Shown here one piece after another: positions 192 through 60,338 of a stretch of DNA of 64,000 bases; the first letter of the stretch is position 1, and each line of letters opens with the position of its first letter. The DNA lies in NCBI GenBank assembly GCA_902789665.1, contig CADAOY010000001.1, positions 310,001-374,000 on the forward strand, written 5' to 3'. Origin of the DNA: an uncultured Lachnospiraceae bacterium. GTDB lineage: Bacteria; Bacillota; Clostridia; Lachnospirales; Lachnospiraceae. A program made the position numbers and the translations under genes. Under the pieces are notes generated by a model. It was not told the DNA's origin and did not search any database. It saw only the letters and a list, made by a program, of their open reading frames with translations.

Positions 192-899
192 ATGGAATTT
201 GTAATATCGCATTTAGCTAAAAGTTATGGAAAACATCAGGTATTAACTGATGTTGATTATACCTTCGAAGAGGGCAAAATCTACGGCCTCATAGGTCGAA
301 ACGGCGCAGGTAAAACCACGCTGTTTAACTGCCTTAACAGCGATATTGAAACTAATGGAGGCAGATTCTTCTTTAAGGATAGCGAGAAGGAAATTGCTGT
401 TAATTCAAGTGACATAGGTTATGTTCTTTCAACGCCTACAGTTCCTGATTTCATGACAGGAAGAGAATTCATTAAATTCTTTATGGATATTCACTCAGAC
501 GGAATTAAAGACCCGATGACCATAGATGAATATATGGATTATGTAATGATACCTGAAGATACCAGAGACCGTCTTATGAAAGACTATTCTCATGGCACCA
601 GGAATAAAATGCAGATGATAGTAAACTTAATAGCCAAGCCAAAACTCATGCTGCTTGATGAGCCTCTTACATCTTTGGATGTAGTTGTGGCTGAAGAGAT
701 GAAAGATATATTCAGAAAGCAAAAAGATGGAAGAGTACTGATTTTCTCCACTCACTTACTGGATATAGCATTGGATTTGTGCGACGAAATCATTCTTCTT
801 AATCATGGGAAACTCGAGAAGGTTGATAAATCAAATCTTGATAATGAAGATTTCAAAATAAAGATAATTGAGGCCCTGAAAGATGCAGATAATTCTTAA
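192..899 (+). CDS. ABC transporter ATP-binding protein
   Basis: This 235-aa ATPase subunit likely pairs with the permease that overlaps its 3' end. The start is the ATG at 192 (MEFVISHLAKSYGK), with AAGG at about 178-182 in front; an upstream in-frame TTG gives a non-homologous extension. Walker A is GRNGAGKTT and Walker B is LMLLDEP. The signature motif is degenerate (YSHGTRNKMQ instead of LSGGQ), as in many drug- and lantibiotic-type exporter ATPases, and the switch histidine lies in FSTHLLD. The stop overlaps the next start by 17 bp, implying translational coupling. The substrate is unknown. Confidence 0.93.
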   Translation: MEFVISHLAKSYGKHQVLTDVDYTFEEGKIYGLIGRNGAGKTTLFNCLNSDIETNGGRFFFKDSEKEIAVNSSDIGYVLSTPTVPDFMTGREFIKFFMDIHSDGIKDPMTIDEYMDYVMIPEDTRDRLMKDYSHGTRNKMQMIVNLIAKPKLMLLDEPLTSLDVVVAEEMKDIFRKQKDGRVLIFSTHLLDIALDLCDEIILLNHGKLEKVDKSNLDNEDFKIKIIEALKDADNS

Positions 900-2538
900 A
901 GATCTTTGGCGAATTACCAAATTAAGAAATACAATAAATACCAATTTAATACTATATGGCATCAGGCGAATTCCTATAATTGGCGGTTTGTTCAACGATG
1001 AAATATATGGCATAAAACTGTTCAAAATCATCGCCTTCATTCTCTCAATTCAGGCAGAAATCTTCAAAGCCATTTTTGGTGATTTTTGTATGTTCGCTCT
1101 TCTGGCTATGGGAACATTTGCCATAAATTATGGAACAGGCTGTCCAAAACCCGTTATCTTCCTGTATGGTTTTATAGTGGCATCACTTGTTAATGTATTT
1201 AATTTTGAAATCTTTAAAGGAAGCCTGGAAGCAGATTATGCTGTATTCGGTATGGGAATGGATGCCAAAAAGTTTATTATGGCAAGACTTACCTATAGAA
1301 TAGCCTGGCTGATAATCAGTTATGTTTTATTTGGAATTCCGGCGGCTTTTATTTCAGGAGTTCCGTGGTTTATTGCACTATTGATTCCGCTGACTGGAAT
1401 AGGATTTGACATAGGCGCCCTGGCTTTAAAGATGTGGATATTCTCATTAAGACAAAAAGGATTTGAGAAGAATAATAAAAAGAAAGATATTTCAATTGAA
1501 GGCACCAGCACACTTGTTTTTTTACTGGTTTTTGGAATACTGATGCTTGGATTTGCAGGAATTCCTGTGATTGTTCGTCTGGAAATTGGATTCATTTCAT
1601 ATATATTTTATGCAATTGTATTTTTCGTTGCCATAACCACATTTTTCACCAATGGTGCCATAAAGAAGTTCCCTTACGGATACTACCGAATTGCACTTGC
1701 CGGTGAAAAGGTTAAACTTGCCAAAGAAAAGGAAAAGAATAAAAAAGCAAATAGTGGTACGGCGCAGATAAGTAAAGACGTAACCAGAATTAATCAGGGT
1801 GAAAATGTTAACAGTGAACTTAATGGATATGCTTATCTTAATGAGATATTCTTTAAAAGACATAAGAATATCCTGTCTGTCAGATTGCTGCTTATGACAT
1901 TATTAGCACTTGGCGCATTTATATTTGGATCATTTCTCATATATTTAGAAGTATTTAAGTTGCATGCTCCGGAGAAATCAGTGATAAGAGGCTTGTTTAC
2001 AAGACATGCGGGAGTCATTTTGCCTGCAGTATGGTCATTAAATTATACTGACTATATATGTCATGTTATGTTTGCAAACTGCGATTCTGTAATGCTTAAA
2101 TATAATTTTTACAAAAGCCCGGATGCGCTGGTAAGGATGTATAAGGAGCGTTTAATATCTGTAATAAGAGCGAATTCAATCCCGGCTGTTATTGTTGCGA
2201 TATTCAGTGTGGTTTCCGTACTGATTACCGGTGGTGAAGAAACACCGTTTCAGTGCATATTTAATGTTCTTCTGGTGGGAACAGGACTTGTGGCTGCATC
2301 TGCATGGTATTTAAGCATATATTATCTTGTTCAGCCTTATGCCAGTAATCTGCAGGTTAAATCCAAATTATATTCTGCTTTGAATTTTGTAATAGCTGCT
2401 TTGCAGTTTCTTATAATATTTATTCCGATACCGGCCTGGATACTTTGTCTTGTATGTGTGCCGGGAACCTTGTTGGCTATTTATGTATTTATGATGCTTA
2501 TCAGAGTAATATCTCCTAAGACATTCAGAATCAGATGA
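883..2538 (+). CDS. ABC transporter permease, about 551 aa
   Basis: This hydrophobic protein has roughly ten predicted membrane segments in two halves, separated by a lysine-rich cytoplasmic stretch (about residues 285-305). The C-terminal half carries LLLMTLLALGAFIFGSFLIY and further helices. It starts 17 bp inside the preceding ATPase gene, so the pair forms a two-component ABC system, more likely an exporter because no binding protein is present. I recognise no specific family, and no substrate can be assigned. Confidence 0.85.
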   Translation: MQIILKDLWRITKLRNTINTNLILYGIRRIPIIGGLFNDEIYGIKLFKIIAFILSIQAEIFKAIFGDFCMFALLAMGTFAINYGTGCPKPVIFLYGFIVASLVNVFNFEIFKGSLEADYAVFGMGMDAKKFIMARLTYRIAWLIISYVLFGIPAAFISGVPWFIALLIPLTGIGFDIGALALKMWIFSLRQKGFEKNNKKKDISIEGTSTLVFLLVFGILMLGFAGIPVIVRLEIGFISYIFYAIVFFVAITTFFTNGAIKKFPYGYYRIALAGEKVKLAKEKEKNKKANSGTAQISKDVTRINQGENVNSELNGYAYLNEIFFKRHKNILSVRLLLMTLLALGAFIFGSFLIYLEVFKLHAPEKSVIRGLFTRHAGVILPAVWSLNYTDYICHVMFANCDSVMLKYNFYKSPDALVRMYKERLISVIRANSIPAVIVAIFSVVSVLITGGEETPFQCIFNVLLVGTGLVAASAWYLSIYYLVQPYASNLQVKSKLYSALNFVIAALQFLIIFIPIPAWILCLVCVPGTLLAIYVFMMLIRVISPKTFRIR

Positions 2539-49560: not shown

Positions 49561-49752
49561 ATGGACATAGCAGCTTTATCAATGAATATGGCTCAGAGCA
49601 ATGTAATGCAGGCAGTGAGCGCTAAGATGCTTAGTAATGCAATGGATATGGCGGATGTAGCCGGAGATGCTATCACTTCTATGATTGACAGTTCAGCAAT
49701 GGAATTATCAGTTAATCCTAGTGTTGGTGCTAATTTCGATGTGATGGTATAA
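49561..49752 (+). CDS. YjfB-family small protein
   Basis: The 63-aa protein MDIAALSMNMAQSNVMQAV... matches the YjfB putative motility protein family: an N-terminal MDIAALS motif, a helix, and a short C-terminal tail. No flagellar genes lie in the window. It has a clear GGAGGGAAG site and a terminator. The role is not established. Confidence 0.85.
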   Translation: MDIAALSMNMAQSNVMQAVSAKMLSNAMDMADVAGDAITSMIDSSAMELSVNPSVGANFDVMV

Positions 49753-51888: not shown

Positions 51889-51918
51889 TTGATAATTACC
51901 CCTGTTTTATGGTAAAAT
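51889..51918 (+). promoter_or_regulatory. Promoter of the DUF5717-like operon
   Basis: TTGATA (51889-51894), 18 bp, then TAAAAT (51913-51918) preceded by TGG (extended -10). The leader is about 105 nt long. Confidence 0.55.
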
Positions 51919-52028: not shown

Positions 52029-55000
52029 TTGAGAAATATCGTTCAATCCATGATAGAAGATAATTATGATTTTTCTGATCGTACACCGGGTCTCGAATTC
52101 TCTTGTGGAAGCATAGAACTGGATTTCTTATCAGAGGCTAAGAAGAGTGGCGAATTCAATATTATCAACACATCTGATACCCCTATGGAGGGGTATATCT
52201 ATGTTACAGGCTCAAGGATGTACTTAACTTCAGATTATTTCAAGGGAATGGAGTCAGTATGTTCTTTTACCTTTGATTCCACCGGTATGGCTGAAGGTGA
52301 TGAAATCGAAGGAGAGTTCCAGATTGTATCCAATAAAGGTGAATATGTAATTCCATATAAGGCACATATGTCTGGCTCTTATATCGATTCTACCAAGGGA
52401 GAGATTCGTAATCTGTTCCATTTTGCCAATCTGGCTGCAGATAATTTTGACGAGGCTGTAACTGTTTTCTATTCTCCGGAGTTTATTAATCTTCTTAAAG
52501 GACCGGATGCAAGATATCTTGGAATGTACAGGGCATTATCATCAAGAAGATATAATGAGCAGTATGTGGATGAGTTTTTGGTTGGAATCAGAAAGAAGTC
52601 CAGAGTATCTTTATCTTCAAGCGTATCAAAGATTAATCTTAATACTGTTATGGATACAAAAGGCGAGTTTAAGATCTACGCTTCTACTTATGGTGCAACA
52701 GGATTTAAGGTTTATGCTGACGACCTTCAGATTGTTACCGAGAAGACTGAATATCGCATAAATGATTATGAAGACAGGGAATGTGTTGTAAGATATGAGA
52801 TTAATAAAGAAGCCCTGCATACAGGCTTTAATTATCTTAATATTCATGTAGAACATTACAATGGGGATATCATTATTCCGGTTGTAATTAATAATAAAGC
52901 AATCGATATTACATCAACATCCGAGTATTACACAAAGAAGATAATAATGGATATTGAGCGTGCCTATGTTCTTTATGAGATAGGTAAAATGGAACTCGGG
53001 GATTTTGCCAAGAAGATTACCAATTATGCGGTAATGTTAAGAGGTGATAAAATCTCCGAATTGTGGTCAGCCCTTCTTAAAATTCAGGTATTAATTGCTG
53101 AGGACAGAGTAAAGGATGCGAGATATTCTTTGGAGAAGGTTGGACCTGAGATTGACAGCTTCAAGGCAGGAGAAGAGATATATGCATATTATCTTTACTT
53201 AACTGCAATGGCAGACAGAAGCACATCATATGTGGACAAGGCGGCGCACAAGGTTAAGAAGGTATATCACAGAAATAAGGATAATACCATAATCGCTTAT
53301 GTGCATATGTTCCTGCAGGAAGAATATGCAGTTAAGAAAGATAAGAAATATGAATTTATAAAAGAAGAATATTACTTAGGCGTAAGTTCCCCATTATTCC
53401 TAGCGCAGGCGCTTAATCTTGCCAAGGCTAATCCGGCTTTGGTGACTGAGCTTGGGGACTTCGAAAGAAGTCTTGTGAGATTTGCACTTAAGTATGATGC
53501 GATTGATGAGAGAATCGCAGAGAGAATTGATTTTCTTGCCAACAGGGACAGGACTTTTGACAGAACGATTTATAATGCGCTGGTTTATATTTATAACAAG
53601 AATCCAAACAAGATGGCATTATCATCTATCTGTTCGTACCTTATGAAGGGTAATAAGGTTGGCAGGGATGATTTCAGATGGTATGAAAAGGCAGTAGAAG
53701 AAGACATCAGATTGACAAGGCTTTATGAGTTTTATATGTACTCACTTCCGATGGATGAGAATATAGAACTTAAGCAGATTATCATGATGTATTTCACATA
53801 CAAGAACAGTCTTGGATATGAGAAGCAGTCTTATCTTATACGCAAGGTTATGGATAATAAGGACAAGTATCCGGATATTGCCCTTAATTTCTTGGAGGGA
53901 ATCGAGAGATTCCTTAAAGATCAGCTTAACGAGGGACATATTAATTCGTCACTTGCAAGATTATACAGGGATTATATTACAACGAACATGATTAATGAGG
54001 ATAATATTGAGAGGGCTGTGCCGCTTATCTTCATGCATGAGATTGAGGTAACCAATCCTAAGGCTTCCATGGTTATTATTATTCATGGCAAGGCAAGTAA
54101 GGAATTCCAGGCAAGAATCATTGACGGTAAGGCATATCTTCCGATATACAGCAGGGATTACTGCATCGTTTTGGAAGATGACAGACATAACAGATATGTG
54201 GACAATGAGCATATCAAAGTTAAGAAAGTAATTGATGATGAACAGTTAATTACTTATGTGAGAAGTTTTGATACCAAGGGTATGGGACCTTGTATCTACT
54301 TCAGCGAAGAAGGCAATAATGATGATGCAATAGATGAGCAGAATCTGGTTTATTATGAAAGATTATATGATTCAGACAGAGTGGTTAAATCCTATCATGA
54401 TGAACTGATGGTCAAGCTGATTAAATATTATCATTCCATTGATGACATAAAGAATCTCGACGAGCTTCTGGCTGACCCTGACATGAGTGTAATATCTCCA
54501 TCCGACAGGGGAGATTTGATTCAGATCATGGTATCTCTTGGTATGTATGATGAGGCCTTTAAATATGTATGTGAATATGGACCTTATCATGTGGAAGATA
54601 AGACAATATTAAGGCTTTGTTCAAGACTTCTTGAAAGAAGGGATTTTGATGAAGATCCTTATCTTGTGGATTTAAGTGGTTATATCTACAGAAAAGATAA
54701 ATATGATCAGAATATTCTTACATATCTTGTTAAGAACATGGATGGAACAACTGCGGATTTAAGAGTGCTTTATGAAGTAAGTAAAGAGTTCCAGGTTGAG
54801 ACATTTCCGCTGCTTGAGAAGATATTAATGCAGTTCTTATTCAGCGGAATATATTCATCTTCCAAGATGTTATATTTTGAAGAATATGTTCATTTGAACG
54901 GAAGTGCTGATTTGCAGAAGGCTTTCCTTGCAAGTTCTGCATATGAGTATTTCGTAAAAGAGGGCATGATTAATGATGACATTTTTGCCCATATAGAAGG

Positions 55001-55577
55001 TTTCCTTGCTGATGGCGAAGAGATGCCAAGAGTATGTAAGCTGGCGCTTCTTCAGTTCCTTAGCGACAAGGATAAAACTCTTCTTAATGAGGAACTTGTT
55101 ACAAGACTTATTGAAGAAGAAATCAGAAATGACAGATGCTTCCCATTCTTTATGGAATATATATCCATGGTTCCGGGACTGCTTAAGTTTACGGACAGGG
55201 CTTTTGTCCAGTATAAGGGTGATAACAGAAGCAGGGTAATAATTCATTATTCAATTGAAAGAGAAGCTGATAAGGAGAATGAGTATCACAGAGATGAAAT
55301 GGTAAATCTTTATGGCGGAATATTCGTCAGTGATTTTATCCTGTTCTCAGATGAAGCAATTCAGTATTACATTACTGAGGAACTTAATAATAAAGAGATG
55401 CTTACACAAAGTTCAGTGCTTCGTCAAAAAGATGATGCAGCGAGCAGCGTATCATGGAGATATTCACTTCTTAATGAGGCTGAGATAGCACGTAAGATGA
55501 ATGATTATACATATTCAGAAGAGATGCTTAAAGAGTATATTAAAAAAGATTATTTAACCAGAATGATATTCAAATAG
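52029..55577 (+). CDS. Large 1182-aa solenoid protein (DUF5717-like, TTG start)
   Basis: The TTG start at 52029 lies five to six bases after GAGGAGAG; the next Met would leave that site too far. The N-terminal 110 residues form a beta-rich Ig-like domain (SCGSIELDFL..., EYVIPYKAHM). Two such stretches follow, then many helical repeats (about 310-1000) of solenoid type, with a beta-rich insert near 690-790. The C-terminus contains another beta segment (VIIHYSIERE..., GGIFVSDFILFSDEAIQYYI). No signal peptide or membrane helix. I recall similar proteins catalogued as DUF5717, with no known function. It is the first gene of a four-gene unit. Confidence 0.8.
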   Translation: MRNIVQSMIEDNYDFSDRTPGLEFSCGSIELDFLSEAKKSGEFNIINTSDTPMEGYIYVTGSRMYLTSDYFKGMESVCSFTFDSTGMAEGDEIEGEFQIVSNKGEYVIPYKAHMSGSYIDSTKGEIRNLFHFANLAADNFDEAVTVFYSPEFINLLKGPDARYLGMYRALSSRRYNEQYVDEFLVGIRKKSRVSLSSSVSKINLNTVMDTKGEFKIYASTYGATGFKVYADDLQIVTEKTEYRINDYEDRECVVRYEINKEALHTGFNYLNIHVEHYNGDIIIPVVINNKAIDITSTSEYYTKKIIMDIERAYVLYEIGKMELGDFAKKITNYAVMLRGDKISELWSALLKIQVLIAEDRVKDARYSLEKVGPEIDSFKAGEEIYAYYLYLTAMADRSTSYVDKAAHKVKKVYHRNKDNTIIAYVHMFLQEEYAVKKDKKYEFIKEEYYLGVSSPLFLAQALNLAKANPALVTELGDFERSLVRFALKYDAIDERIAERIDFLANRDRTFDRTIYNALVYIYNKNPNKMALSSICSYLMKGNKVGRDDFRWYEKAVEEDIRLTRLYEFYMYSLPMDENIELKQIIMMYFTYKNSLGYEKQSYLIRKVMDNKDKYPDIALNFLEGIERFLKDQLNEGHINSSLARLYRDYITTNMINEDNIERAVPLIFMHEIEVTNPKASMVIIIHGKASKEFQARIIDGKAYLPIYSRDYCIVLEDDRHNRYVDNEHIKVKKVIDDEQLITYVRSFDTKGMGPCIYFSEEGNNDDAIDEQNLVYYERLYDSDRVVKSYHDELMVKLIKYYHSIDDIKNLDELLADPDMSVISPSDRGDLIQIMVSLGMYDEAFKYVCEYGPYHVEDKTILRLCSRLLERRDFDEDPYLVDLSGYIYRKDKYDQNILTYLVKNMDGTTADLRVLYEVSKEFQVETFPLLEKILMQFLFSGIYSSSKMLYFEEYVHLNGSADLQKAFLASSAYEYFVKEGMINDDIFAHIEGFLADGEEMPRVCKLALLQFLSDKDKTLLNEELVTRLIEEEIRNDRCFPFFMEYISMVPGLLKFTDRAFVQYKGDNRSRVIIHYSIEREADKENEYHRDEMVNLYGGIFVSDFILFSDEAIQYYITEELNNKEMLTQSSVLRQKDDAASSVSWRYSLLNEAEIARKMNDYTYSEEMLKEYIKKDYLTRMIFK

Positions 55578-55589
55578 GTTGGTAGGTAA

Positions 55590-56888
55590 ATGATATCAGA
55601 CAGTATCAAGGATGTATTTGACAAAATAAGTAAAGATAAATATGTGATTGGATACGATATTAATCCGGAGTTTGCGCAGATTTCATACTGCAGAATTGAT
55701 GAGCGTACTCCTGAGACATTAAGTACCATTACAGGTGCGGAGGAATTCAATATTCCGCTTGTTATCTTAAGACGCCGTTCAACAAAGGCGTGGGTGTTTG
55801 GTAATGAAGCCCTGGAAGCCGAGAAGGACAGGGATGGAGGTTTAATTAAGAATCTCTATGAAAGGGCCCTGGCAGATGAGAATATTAATGTTGACGGGGA
55901 AATCTACAGAGCGGAAGACCTGCTGCTTTTATTTATCAAAAAGAGTCTTGGACTGCTTTCAGTTATGACCACGCCTGAGAAGGTTATGGGCATATGCATT
56001 GCAACACCGAAGCTGGATGAAAGACTGGTTAATATTTTCCGTAAAGTCCCGAAACTCATTCAGGTACCAAATGACAAACTCGAAATGATGGACTATGAAG
56101 AAAGCTTCTTCTATTACATGGTGGGACAGGAAAGTGATTTGAGTAAGTATAATGTGCTGCTTTGTGATTCATCCCTTGGATATCTTAATATTTATTCATT
56201 AGAGAAGAATACTTTTGCAAAGCCTAATTTTGTAAGTGTCTTTGCAGATGAGCACAGGGATTTTAAATTTGAGGAAGTAAGTGAGTCTGTATATGAACTC
56301 AGGGACAGCAAGTTCCAGGAGATTGTATCAGGCTTTATGGAGAATAAAATTTACTCTTCAGTTTTCTTAATTGGAGACGGTCTTGCGGGAGACTGGCTTA
56401 AGAATTCAATTAAGTTTTTATGTAAGAACAGAAGAGTATTTAAGGGTAATAACTTGTTTAGCAAAGGCGCCTGCATAGCGGCTTTGGAGAAGGTGGTTCC
56501 ATCCAATTTCGAAGAGGATGTGGTTTACATGGGTAAAGGCAAACTCAAAATCGGAATCGGACTTAAGGTGAATACCGCCGGAAAAGATGAAGTAATTAAT
56601 GTGGTTCCTGCAGGACTTAACTGGTATGATGTTCACGGCCAGGCAGAGGTTATAATCAAGGATACCAATGTAATTAATATTTATATTGAAAGACCTAATG
56701 GAAAGCCGGGAGCAGTGGCGGAGTTCAAGCTTAAGGATTTTCCAATAAGAAATGGCAGAATCTCAAGGATACTTATGGACGTAACCATGACAAATGAGAA
56801 GATTGTGCATTTCAAGGCGCAGGATCTGGGATTTGGTGAGATATTCCCATCAACAGGAATGATATTCGAAGAAGATTTGGAAGTGTGA
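55590..56888 (+). CDS. Hsp70/actin-fold-like protein (DUF5716-like)
   Basis: The 432-aa protein follows the Hsp70 plan. The phosphate-1-like strand is YVIGYDINPEFAQISY (18-33), then IPLVILRRRSTKAWVFGNEA (55-74). The phosphate-2-like strand is VLLCDSSLGYL (189-199), and the adenosine-like segment is VFLIGDGLAGDWL (258-270), ending with NLFSKGACIAAL. Residues 376-420 (AEFKLKDFPIRNGR..., DVTM, AQDLGFGE) resemble the Hsp70 substrate-binding beta-sandwich. The Gly-rich DLGTT and DLGGGT signatures are not conserved, so ATP use is doubtful. The C-terminal lid is absent. Twelve bp separate it from the preceding gene. Confidence 0.78.
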   Translation: MISDSIKDVFDKISKDKYVIGYDINPEFAQISYCRIDERTPETLSTITGAEEFNIPLVILRRRSTKAWVFGNEALEAEKDRDGGLIKNLYERALADENINVDGEIYRAEDLLLLFIKKSLGLLSVMTTPEKVMGICIATPKLDERLVNIFRKVPKLIQVPNDKLEMMDYEESFFYYMVGQESDLSKYNVLLCDSSLGYLNIYSLEKNTFAKPNFVSVFADEHRDFKFEEVSESVYELRDSKFQEIVSGFMENKIYSSVFLIGDGLAGDWLKNSIKFLCKNRRVFKGNNLFSKGACIAALEKVVPSNFEEDVVYMGKGKLKIGIGLKVNTAGKDEVINVVPAGLNWYDVHGQAEVIIKDTNVINIYIERPNGKPGAVAEFKLKDFPIRNGRISRILMDVTMTNEKIVHFKAQDLGFGEIFPSTGMIFEEDLEV

Positions 56889-56892
56889 TACA

Positions 56893-57711
56893 ATGGCGGG
56901 TGTATATAAAAGTTTATACAGAAGAGCGAATAAGCCTTTTTATATAGACAGGGTTTCATTAAGAATTTATTCGGTGGAAGAACTGTGCTATATAATTACG
57001 GAGAATGCGGAACTTATTGAGAAGGATATTTTCTCCAGAGACCTTGCCATCTGGCTTGAGGGTGAGTGCGGCGCAAGAGAACTTGCAGCAGAGATAATAA
57101 AGCTCATTACAAGTGATGCGAGACTGGTTCAGTTTGTTAAGGTTATACTTGAATGCGCGCCTTACATATCTGATGAAGAGAAGAATGAAATCTATGAGAT
57201 AATCCGTGATATGGTTAGCTCAGATATTTATCACAGACGCAAAAGCCACGCCGACTTTTTCTTAAAGAAAGAAAGATTCATGCCGGCGATAAAGGAATAT
57301 GAACAGCTTATTGAGACTGTGGATGAAGAAGAGAAATTCTTCCTGGCAGAATTATATCATTCCCTTGGAATTGCAAAGGCGAGGCTTTTTATATTTAATG
57401 AGGCAGTAGATGCTTTTAATAAAGCTTATGAACTTGATGAAGATCCAAAGCACGAATATATGGCTAAGGCTGCAATGAGACTTTCCTTAAGTGAAAAGGA
57501 ATATCTGGCAAAAGTCTCTGTGGATGAAGCCAATACAAATATTATTAATCTTGAGGATGATTTATTTAAGATTAATAATGAATTTTTGGAAAGCGAAGAA
57601 TATAAAGAGCTGGTTAATGCCAAAGAGAATGCACAGTCAGTCAGTGATTATGAAGCATTTATTGATAAGAAGATTTATGACCTTAAGGAAGAGTACAGGC
57701 GTTTTGTATAG
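56893..57711 (+). CDS. TPR-like 272-aa protein
   Basis: This cytoplasmic protein has an N-terminal helical domain (about 15-110) and a TPR-like pair (about 130-190: FLAELYHSLGIAKARLFIFN and AVDAFNKAYELDED), followed by a charged C-terminal coiled segment. It starts four bases after the preceding stop with a weak ribosome site, so translation is likely coupled. As TPR proteins often bind chaperones, it may be a partner of the Hsp70-like protein. I do not recognise the family. Confidence 0.78.
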   Translation: MAGVYKSLYRRANKPFYIDRVSLRIYSVEELCYIITENAELIEKDIFSRDLAIWLEGECGARELAAEIIKLITSDARLVQFVKVILECAPYISDEEKNEIYEIIRDMVSSDIYHRRKSHADFFLKKERFMPAIKEYEQLIETVDEEEKFFLAELYHSLGIAKARLFIFNEAVDAFNKAYELDEDPKHEYMAKAAMRLSLSEKEYLAKVSVDEANTNIINLEDDLFKINNEFLESEEYKELVNAKENAQSVSDYEAFIDKKIYDLKEEYRRFV

Positions 57712-57718
57712 GTGATGT

Positions 57719-58879
57719 ATGGGGATTTTTTCAAAGTTTTTTTCGAAAAAAAAGAATGATGAATACTATGAGAATTCCAGCTTTTATCTGTCAGAAATAA
57801 TAGATAATGATGAGGACAGAAAGAAGTATATAGAAGGTATCATAAGCCAGATGAAGGCTTCCGGTGATGATATTGATTCTCTTTCAAGAGAGTATGATAA
57901 ACTGACATCACTGCTTGGTGATATTGAGCAGATTGATTCTTTCCCGAGGGATATCAAGGAAGACATTATGGGGTGCGCAAGAGCCCTTAATAATGTGGAG
58001 AATGTAAAGGCAACTCTGGATTCGAACCTGCCGTATCTGTCGGAGAGTGAATATGCAATCATGACAAAGATTGAACCTGATATGCCAAAGGCGTATAATC
58101 AGATTTTGGATGCTGAAAATTATCAGAAGAAAATCAGGTCTGATCTTCAGTATGTGGAATCCGAAAAGAATGCATATAAATTCAGGCTTCGTGAGATGGA
58201 GACAATGATATCCAACTTAGGTGGGGCGCTTATAATAATTACCATATGCTTCTTGACAGGTGTGGCAATAGAGATTATATTTGCTCTTATGCTTTCCTTT
58301 GATGTAAAGATTGCTTTCTTAATTACTGTTGCGGCAGCAGCGATTGGATATACCATTGTTGCCATAAAGGTAATGGAGAGACAGGAAGAAAAGCGTGTGA
58401 TAGAGCGTGACATAGCAAGGCTTGTCCAGCTTCATAATACAGTTAAAATAAGATATGTTAATAATACAAACTTGCTGGATTACTATTATATTAAGTATAA
58501 TGTTGCAAGTTCCTCTGAACTGGATGAAATCTGGAGCAGATATATTCAGGTCAGGGATGAAAGAATGAAGATGATGAAGACTCAGGAAGAGTGGGATTAT
58601 TACAGCAGGGAACTTAGTAATAAGCTAAGGCGGCTGCACATACAGGATCCTGAAGTCTGGAAATATCAGACCAATGCTTTATTGAATCCTAAAGAGATGG
58701 TTGAGGTAAGGCATCATCTTGTAGGTCAGAGGCAGGCGCTTCGTAAGAAGATGGATGAAAGTAAAGCCTATGCTCTGGCAGCAGAAGATGAACTTAAGAA
58801 ACTTCTGAAGGCATATCCTAAATATTCCACGGAAGTTATGACAATGATGGAAAAATATGAAAGTAAAGTAAGTATATAG
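57719..58879 (+). CDS. Two-TM coiled-coil 386-aa membrane protein
   Basis: The protein starts with a basic segment ([10 protein letters not shown]), then a helical region (about 30-165), two membrane helices (about 170-192 and 198-215, [20 protein letters not shown]) with a short loop, and a long coiled-coil C-terminus (about 220-380). Both ends should be cytoplasmic. It is the last gene of the operon, after GGTGATG, and probably tethers the soluble partners to the membrane. No family recognised. Confidence 0.78.
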
Positions 58880-58901: not shown

Positions 58902-60338
58902 ATGAACGAAGATGTTTATGTAAGCCCGTTATCGGAAAGATATTCAAGCAAGGAGATGCAGTATATCTTTTCACCTGAGAAGAAATTCAAAACCTGGAGA
59001 AGATTATGGATTGCTCTTGCAGAAACTGAGAAAGAATTAGGCTTAACTCAGATTACTGATGAGATGATAGAAGAACTTAAGGAACATAAAGATGACCTTA
59101 ATCTTGATGTTGCAAAAGAAAGAGAAAAGGTTGTTAGACATGACGTAATGAGCCATGTTTATGCATATGGAATGCAGTGTCCTAAGGCTAAGGGTATTAT
59201 CCATCTTGGTGCAACATCATGCTACGTTGGTGATAATACAGATATGATTCTTATGAAGGAAGCTCTTATTCTTGTTCGTAAGAAAGTTGTAAATGTTATT
59301 AATAACTTAACCAAGTTTGCTGAGGAATATAAAGATCTTCCAACACTTGCATTTACACATTTCCAGCCAGCACAGCCAACCACAGTTGGTAAGAGAGCAA
59401 CACTCTGGATTAATGAGTTTGTTATCGACTTAGAGGATCTTGATTATGTTATTGATTCTCTTAAACTTCTTGGTTCAAAGGGAACAACAGGTACACAGGC
59501 AAGTTTCCTGGAGTTATTTGACGGAGATCAGGAAACAATCGATAAGATTGATCCAATGATTGCAAAGAAGATGGGATTTGAATCAACATATCCTGTATCA
59601 GGTCAGACATATTCAAGAAAGATTGATACAAGAGTATGTAACGTACTTGCAGGTATTGCAGCAAGTGCTCATAAGATGGGTAATGATATCAGACTCCTTC
59701 AGCACCTTAAGGAAGTTGAAGAGCCATTTGAGAAGAGCCAGATTGGTTCATCAGCAATGGCTTATAAGCGTAATCCAATGCGTTCAGAGAGAATCTGTTC
59801 ACTTTCAAGATATGTAATCTGTGATGCACTTAATCCTGCAATTACATCAGCTACACAGTGGTTTGAGAGAACACTTGATGACTCTGCAAATAAGAGATTA
59901 TCAGTAGCAGAAGGATTCCTTGCAACAGATGGTATTCTTGATTTATGTATCAATGTAACTGACGGACTTAAGGTATATCCTAAGGTTATTGAGAAACATA
60001 TCAAAGCTGAACTTCCATTTATGGCTACAGAGAATATTATGATGGATGCTGTTAAGGCAGGTGGAGACAGACAGGTTCTTCATGAAATCATCAGAGAGAA
60101 GTCAATGGAAGCAGGAAAGAATGTTAAGGAAGAAGGTCTTGAGAATAATCTTCTTGAACTTCTTGCAGCAGAGCCTCAGTTTGGTCTTACCAAAGAAGAG
60201 ATGGAATCAAAACTTGATCCGGCTCTCTATGTGGGAAGAGCACCAAGACAGGTTGAGAAGTTCGTGGCTGAAGTTTGCAATCCAATCTTAGAGAAGTATA
60301 AAGATGAACTTAATGTAGTAGCTACGATTAATGTATAA
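58902..60338 (+). CDS. purB: Adenylosuccinate lyase
   Basis: It catalyses two fumarate-releasing steps in purine synthesis (SAICAR to AICAR, adenylosuccinate to AMP). At 478 aa, the fumarase-superfamily signature [14 protein letters not shown] carries the catalytic flexible loop serine; [12 protein letters not shown] and [15 protein letters not shown] are the other two conserved regions. The ribosome site is TGGAGG, 22 bp after the preceding gene. Confidence 0.97.

Follow-up and report, generated by a model that had tools for sequence, protein, structure and literature searches.

What is the role of an Hsp70 that is unable to hydrolyse ATP, and why does such a dead copy stay in a genome when the live ones go? 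The question is raised by a four-gene locus of an uncultured Lachnospiraceae bacterium (assembly GCA_902789665.1, contig CADAOY010000001.1, positions 310,001 to 374,000 of the forward strand; these 64,000 nucleotides are called the window, and positions are counted from its first letter). The genes, here called A, B, C and D, encode proteins of 1182, 432, 272 and 386 amino acids (aa) and are separated by 12, 4 and 7 base pairs (bp), just as an initial annotation of the locus had described them. Lachnospiraceae are among the main butyrate-forming bacteria of the gut and rumen, and 145 of the 150 genomes sampled from the family have the locus, yet in Pfam A and B have only the names DUF5717 and DUF5716, and no family matches C or D above cut-off. 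When the full texts of 5.39 million open papers were searched for either of these names, a single, unrelated cancer study came up, in which the name stands for the human protein MAX, going by an excerpt (PMC8115291). Among the papers listed on Hsp70/TPR operons, Hsp70/GrpE/vWA clusters, unusual bacterial Hsp70s and signature proteins of Lachnospiraceae, none describes this locus in its title or displayed abstract.

New in the present work is that other families of the order have a counterpart operon in which three intact Hsp70s occur with a GrpE-like protein. To the following account we give about an even chance: the order evolved a dedicated operon consisting of three active Hsp70s, a pseudo-Hsp70, a GrpE-like exchange factor and a PapD/TPR (tetratricopeptide repeat) scaffold, after which one family discarded every ATPase and made the pseudo-Hsp70 and the scaffold part of its core genome. 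The dead subunit, and not the engine, would then be the indispensable part of a new chaperone-derived machine.

The Hsp70-like protein B

Pfam assigns DUF5716_C to residues 135-431 of B above the curated cut-off, and PF00012 (HSP70) gave no match to the protein. The AlphaFold2 model (pLDDT, the predicted local distance difference test, 91.4; pTM, the predicted template modelling score, 0.87) has the two-lobed nucleotide-domain fold of actin and Hsp70 followed by the beta part of the substrate-binding domain (SBD-beta). In this model the chain stops after the last SBD-beta strand, leaving no helical lid (SBD-alpha). An Hsp70 layout with a substrate-domain-like end had been proposed for B before, and both the predicted fold and its matches agree with it.

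The nucleotide site was analyzed in an alignment of 46 B rows (the window's B, 34 A1 rows and every sixth A4 row). With E. coli DnaK numbering, K70 is kept in 0/46 rows, T199 in 1/46 and D201 in 0/46, and when E171 is counted as the fourth catalytic position, 45 rows keep none of the four and one row keeps a single position. The two threonines of phosphate motif 1 remain in 0/46 and 4/46 rows, and the two glycines of phosphate motif 2 in 4/46 and 10/46. By alignment and predicted fold, B is well supported as a lidless, catalytically eroded Hsp70. Since the erosion runs through the whole family, client binding on a normal ATP cycle is unlikely, and of the Hsp70-type machine first suggested for the locus the layout holds, with the correction that B is no ordinary active Hsp70.

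The conserved module and its counterpart in sister families

To describe the gene order we used two sets of loci, neither of them random and with a slight overlap (L047, on G031:C52, and L173 have contigs of equal length). Set 1 has 61 loci, from 60 of the 145 B-positive genomes (long contigs, weakest matches included) and from G642; set 2 holds the best 80 of 547 confirmed matches, is biased towards the window's B and includes loci cut by contig ends. Family hidden Markov models (HMMs) found the layout ABCD in 28 loci of set 1, ABC in 27, ABC with a B-C fusion in five and B alone in one, so that A, B and C are together in 60 of 61 loci with a largest gap of 223 bp; in set 2 the counts were 66 ABCD, 13 ABC and one BC, and the largest gap in the whole survey was 255 bp. 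Gaps between -50 and 60 bp were the rule, both for A-B (56/60 in set 1, 72/79 in set 2) and for B-C (53/55 and 71/80). For comparison, 27 of 60 set 1 loci have the divergent HisC-like gene, a control neighbour, within 3.5 kb on the upstream side. It is clear that the linkage of A, B and C is far above chance, and the conservation of the neighbourhood asked about in the initial annotation was found throughout the family.

DUF5716_C occurs once per genome in the 145 positive genomes of the family except for G129 and G137 (two pieces on one contig in the latter), and three of the five genomes without it retain DUF5717. Neither domain was detected in G029 (93% complete) and G091 (98%), both fairly complete; these are possible natural losses and might give a hint of the module's function. 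A phylum-wide sample of 398 genomes had DUF5716_C in five, namely the window genome and four others of its family, and none in the remaining 393. In a scan of named genomes, 75 of the 80 best relatives are labelled Lachnospiraceae, Butyrivibrio, Kineothrix or Eisenbergiella, and the other five comprise two Clostridiales, one record labelled Muribaculaceae and bacteria without a title. DUF5717_N reaches further: it was found in 94 of 196 genomes of the order including other families, a count that holds weak or odd matches such as those of G704 (contamination 5) and G650 (E 5.9e-5), and above cut-off in 10 of 291 genomes of a class sample, these being the window's own and nine further genomes of its family.

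For the larger operon, twenty regions were fetched, of which one (L126 in G642) belongs to Lachnospiraceae itself; 16 of the other 19 were extended and analyzed (those of G550, G557 and G613 were left out). In all 16 loci (seven families of the order besides Lachnospiraceae), A, an orthologue of B and mostly C are part of a bigger operon with the order A (one or two genes), alpha, X, beta, gamma, delta and mostly a TPR protein, where the Greek letters and X are labels coined in this analysis. Alpha (about 559 aa) is a bona fide Hsp70, gamma (about 546 aa) is a third Hsp70, and delta (about 692 aa) is an Hsp70 with a C-terminal von Willebrand factor A (vWA) domain. Delta was seen in 14 of the 16 loci, once truncated; of the other two, G577 has it just past the end of the fetched region and G725 on a different contig. 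X is a coiled-coil protein with a GrpE match in 15/16 loci, and beta, a divergent Hsp70, matches DUF5716_C in 14/16 and HSP70 in 10/16. The operon of G552 may serve as an example, with Pfam detecting HSP70 on alpha, gamma and delta, vWA on delta, GrpE on X, and both DUF5716_C and HSP70 on beta. Going by mean column identity, delta is very conserved (74%), and the GrpE-like X (34%) and beta (43%) diverge fast.

It is beta that corresponds to B. The B HMM had beta as its best match in 15 of 16 sister loci, the two profiles aligned over 424 columns (100% probability, E 2.1e-48), and a search with the beta profile reached DnaK at 1.4e-20. Two sequence features were counted in all of these proteins: a signature at the position of the Hsp70 adenosine motif, present in 41/46 B and 13/16 beta and absent from alpha, gamma, delta and DnaK, and the motif D-x-G-[FL]-G near the end, present in 46/46 B, 13/16 beta and 6/16 gamma and in none of alpha, delta or DnaK. 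A quick tree of 93 rows (30 of the 46 B rows among them) set B and beta apart from the other Hsp70s (alpha, gamma, delta, DnaK) by a branch with a Shimodaira-Hasegawa-like approximate likelihood ratio (SH-aLRT) of 100, and placed the beta of G549 next to all B (98) with the other beta outside, i.e. B is nested inside beta. By sequence relationship the sister-family locus is thus the multi-Hsp70 and GrpE counterpart of the A-B-C module, and we regard the anatomy and ancestry of the A-B-C locus as well supported. The module had been taken to be distinct from DnaK/DnaJ/GrpE, which is not simply so, given the intact Hsp70s and the GrpE-like protein of the sister-family version.

All four catalytic positions are kept in 16/16 alpha, 16/16 gamma and 13/14 delta, and beta keeps none of them in 13/16 and one in three. 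Since beta is already eroded, the pseudo-Hsp70 probably arose before the operon was reduced, and the nesting of B inside beta favours a loss of the ATPases in Lachnospiraceae over a gain elsewhere, which is less likely but possible since the tree is a quick one and several beta rows are long-branched. With delta as marker, 69 genomes of the order scored at least 844 bits, all of them from other families, and the next match had 325 bits, which is the level of DnaK. The 174 other-family genomes divide into 67 with DUF5717 and delta, five with DUF5717 only, two with delta only and 100 with neither; no delta was found in the 22 Lachnospiraceae genomes of the order sample, the window's included, and no match above 356 bits in the class sample. 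The comparison suggests that Lachnospiraceae did away with the ATPases while the dead Hsp70 stayed, and makes the two loci a natural before-and-after pair.

In A, DUF5717_N and DUF5717 together span the entire protein above the curated cut-off, and the AlphaFold2 model (pLDDT 87.0, pTM 0.57) contains the solenoid that had been claimed for this protein, together with two PapD/MSP/ASH-like domains and a beta-sandwich near the end that a solenoid does not cover. The TPR-like nature of C was supported: Pfam gives only TPR matches, all below curated cut-offs, the C family HMM detects a TPR protein of about 390 aa in 13/16 sister loci, and in G552, the one sister operon that was scanned, Pfam clearly identifies the C orthologue as a TPR protein. 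B and C are fused into one frame in five family loci (L089, L091, L092, L094 and L096), which suggests that B contacts C. D has no Pfam match above cut-off. Hydropathy (A, B and C do not exceed 1.43 in any 19-residue window) and alignment bear out the earlier view of D as a coiled-coil protein with two transmembrane segments, the predicted hairpin lying at about residues 168-218. Its orthologue was found in 16/16 sister genomes, adjoining the operon in six and elsewhere in the genome in ten.

Possible roles of the module

How could a module with a dead Hsp70 work? The reading that we hold to be the most likely, at about even odds, is that it is an ATP-independent, Ssz1-like scaffold or holdase. 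B would no longer cycle and, like yeast Ssz1, would offer a fixed platform for binding, with its SBD-beta, or the reshaped nucleotide lobe, weakly holding a client or partner. C would dock onto B, A would be a long scaffold that gathers units or clients, and D, where present, would fasten the assembly to the membrane on its cytoplasmic side. Any step driven by ATP would depend on a different protein, for which the ordinary DnaK of the cell is the most plausible candidate.

With DnaK/Hsp70 (PF00012), B has in common the predicted two-lobed nucleotide domain and SBD-beta as well as the link through beta, and it differs by the missing lid, the eroded phosphate and catalytic motifs and the missing PF00012 match. 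Ssz1 of the yeast ribosome-associated complex is the best functional parallel: in the excerpted description it is a lidless Hsp70 of nucleotide domain and SBD-beta that binds ATP without hydrolysing it, forms a stable complex with its partner and has low-affinity chain binding within this complex (PMC7083937). In predicted fold B has a high similarity to Ssz1, on a level with other Hsp70s. The partner of Ssz1 is a J-domain protein, those of B would be TPR and PapD/solenoid proteins, and the likeness presumably has an independent origin.

A number of observations speak against the scaffold or holdase reading, or against parts of it. That A, B, C and perhaps D form one complex, bind clients and cooperate with DnaK is inferred. 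A profile search of the PDB with B found no solved structure and a phmmer search gave nothing of use, so that the link between B and Hsp70 depends on the predicted fold and on beta as a bridge. In G638 the B HMM scores beta only slightly higher (81.9 against 79.9 bits), and in G669 beta is not its best match. Glu is found in 0/46 B at the E171 column, but two columns on it is present in 39/46 B and 13/16 beta, so the loss of E171 depends on the alignment register; our estimates are unchanged by this because the other three positions stand. D8 is kept in 42/46 B and D194 in 34/46, which makes ATP binding by B possible. Finally, a genome-wide search was negative for D in all 33 family genomes without D beside C, among them G120 of the same genus, and as a control the same search found D in 10/10 sister genomes. 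We therefore regard A-B-C as the core and D as accessory. A membrane-tethered machine, as first envisaged, agrees with the membrane hairpin of D and would apply to only the 28 of 61 set 1 loci in which D adjoins C.

The first alternative, which we consider possible though rather unlikely, makes B a co-chaperone of the cell's DnaK that binds ATP without hydrolysing it and together with C feeds clients to DnaK or regulates it, in the way of Ssz1 or Hsp110. Ssz1 and the Hsp110 Sse1 are among the fold matches of B, tied with other Hsp70s, and Ssz1, according to the same excerpt, is likewise lidless and non-hydrolysing and works for another Hsp70 (PMC7083937). There is also a DnaK to work for: a DnaK-level Hsp70 was present in all 40 family genomes searched, some of which have further Hsp70s, and in the window genome, where two other PF00012 matches are short and weak. 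The eroded Hsp70 adjoins intact Hsp70s and a GrpE-like protein in the sister families, and D8, D194 and a Glu close to position E171 are mostly retained, which would fit ATP binding. However, the erosion of B appears deeper than that of Ssz1, the threonines, the Lys and the phosphate 2 glycines being mostly gone. A J-domain match was also missing from the operon proteins scanned: the four proteins of the window gave no DnaJ match at E 0.1, and at the same threshold there was none among the matches listed for the nine G552 operon proteins (25 of 32 in the case of the TPR protein), a result that counts against the favoured reading too.

Unlikely in our view is a second alternative, a structural scaffold of the envelope or cytoplasm that is not a chaperone, in which the Hsp70/actin fold and the PapD/ASH domains would be protein-protein modules of, for instance, a membrane or division complex. 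The fold-level likeness of A to ASH/HYDIN- and TPR-type parts of large assemblies, the predicted hairpin of D and the retention of the module without ATPases are all in line with such a scaffold, but D is dispensable, and a pure actin-like scaffold has no obvious need for the SBD-beta, which is kept with D-x-G-F/L-G in every B row. A defence or conflict system is highly improbable: excerpts describe HSP70 with GrpE, a second incomplete HSP70 and FNIII-TPR fusions in GAP1-N2 neighbourhoods (eLife 2020, PMC7159879), and Hsp70-like CnuD/CnuCD with NBD/SBD, degenerate ATPase motifs and helical-repeat and vWA partners in CoCoNuTs (eLife 2024, PMC11090510), but no match to GAP1, GTPases, McrB/C or nucleases is among the Pfam matches listed for the window genes and the nine G552 operon proteins, PADLOC-DB models at E 1 gave 0 families for the four window proteins, and a defence or mobile origin was dropped on account of the nearly family-wide, syntenic presence, which is unlike that of patchy defence genes.

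Layout of the locus and side observations

The features of the locus are collected in Table 1. A single promoter had been proposed for the four genes, a claim with weak support: 35 promoter-like sites were observed in the scanned region against 33.6 in shuffles, which makes the candidate upstream of A weak and no better than chance. With purB beginning 22 bp past D, the unit may also exceed four genes. In G120 (L085), a genome of the same genus without D, the longest purB frame overlaps C, and this overlap and the 22 bp spacing together suggest that the transcript may include purB. As a conserved partner purB does not qualify, since it directly follows C or D in just 2/60 set 1 loci.

Table 1 Features of the A-B-C-D locus (window positions and residues) and of the G552 operon.
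Feature	Position	Strand	Evidence or remark
Candidate promoter, weak	51889..51918	+	TTGATA-18-TAAAAT, TG preceding second hexamer
Gene A, DUF5717, 1182 aa	52029..55577	+	Open reading frame (ORF); TTG start, GAGGAG-type ribosome site; Pfam PF18984 7e-235, PF18983 1.3e-83
A, PapD/MSP/ASH-like domain 1	residues ~20-116, 52086-52376	+	AlphaFold2, fold matches
A, PapD/MSP/ASH-like domain 2	residues ~190-291, 52596-52901	+	AlphaFold2, fold matches
A, alpha-solenoid	residues ~298-660 and 738-1054	+	AlphaFold2
A, small beta domain	residues 669-733	+	AlphaFold2
A, Ig-like domain (beta-sandwich near C-terminal end), then end helices	residues 1057-1132	+	AlphaFold2
Gene B, DUF5716, 432 aa, lidless Hsp70-like	55590..56888	+	ORF; PF18980 4e-87; AlphaFold2; orthology to beta
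B, nucleotide-domain-like part	residues ~16-304, 55635-56501	+	Predicted fold
B, phosphate motif 1 position (GIDLGTTNS in DnaK), eroded	55650..55679	+	Alignment
B, phosphate motif 2 position (YDLGGGTFD in DnaK), eroded	56163..56189	+	Alignment
B, stretch replacing Hsp70 adenosine motif: G-x-G-F..W then RRVF-GNNL-SKGA	56370..56471	+	Alignment; first part common to beta
B, SBD-beta-like part	residues ~311-432, 56520-56885	+	Predicted fold
Gene C, TPR protein, 272 aa	56893..57711	+	ORF; sub-threshold TPR matches; HMM; fusions to B
Gene D, coiled coil - membrane hairpin - coiled coil, 386 aa	57719..58879	+	ORF; alignment; hydropathy
D, predicted two-transmembrane hairpin	residues 168-218, 58220..58372	+	Hydropathy, alignment
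purB	58902..60338	+	Starts 22 bp 3' of D; maybe co-transcribed, not conserved partner
G552 operon	L108:5675-12593 and L128:2518-4674		Four Hsp70-like genes and GrpE-like coiled-coil protein

The HisC-like gene and purB were dropped as clues to function, being only partly conserved. Wadjet JetA, which carries a similar DUF number, was dropped as well, as PADLOC gave no match, and an NCBIfam scan of the four proteins returned only matches far below cut-off. Upstream in the window, an ORF of 63 aa at 49561-49752 may resemble YjfB-type small proteins.

Elsewhere in the window genome a second, sub-cut-off DUF5717_N match lies at C8:13031-13351 (E 3.8e-4), and in another genome of the family an Hsp70 domain is found within an open frame of 1328 aa (G049:C10:343332-344822). 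Several of the sister genomes in which D lies apart from the operon have a valS-like frame nearby (identified by eye), an association that carries little information. In G581 (L242:9181-12855) repeated frames with a Cas2-like ORF adjoin a D homologue, and by eye the stretch looks like a CRISPR array.

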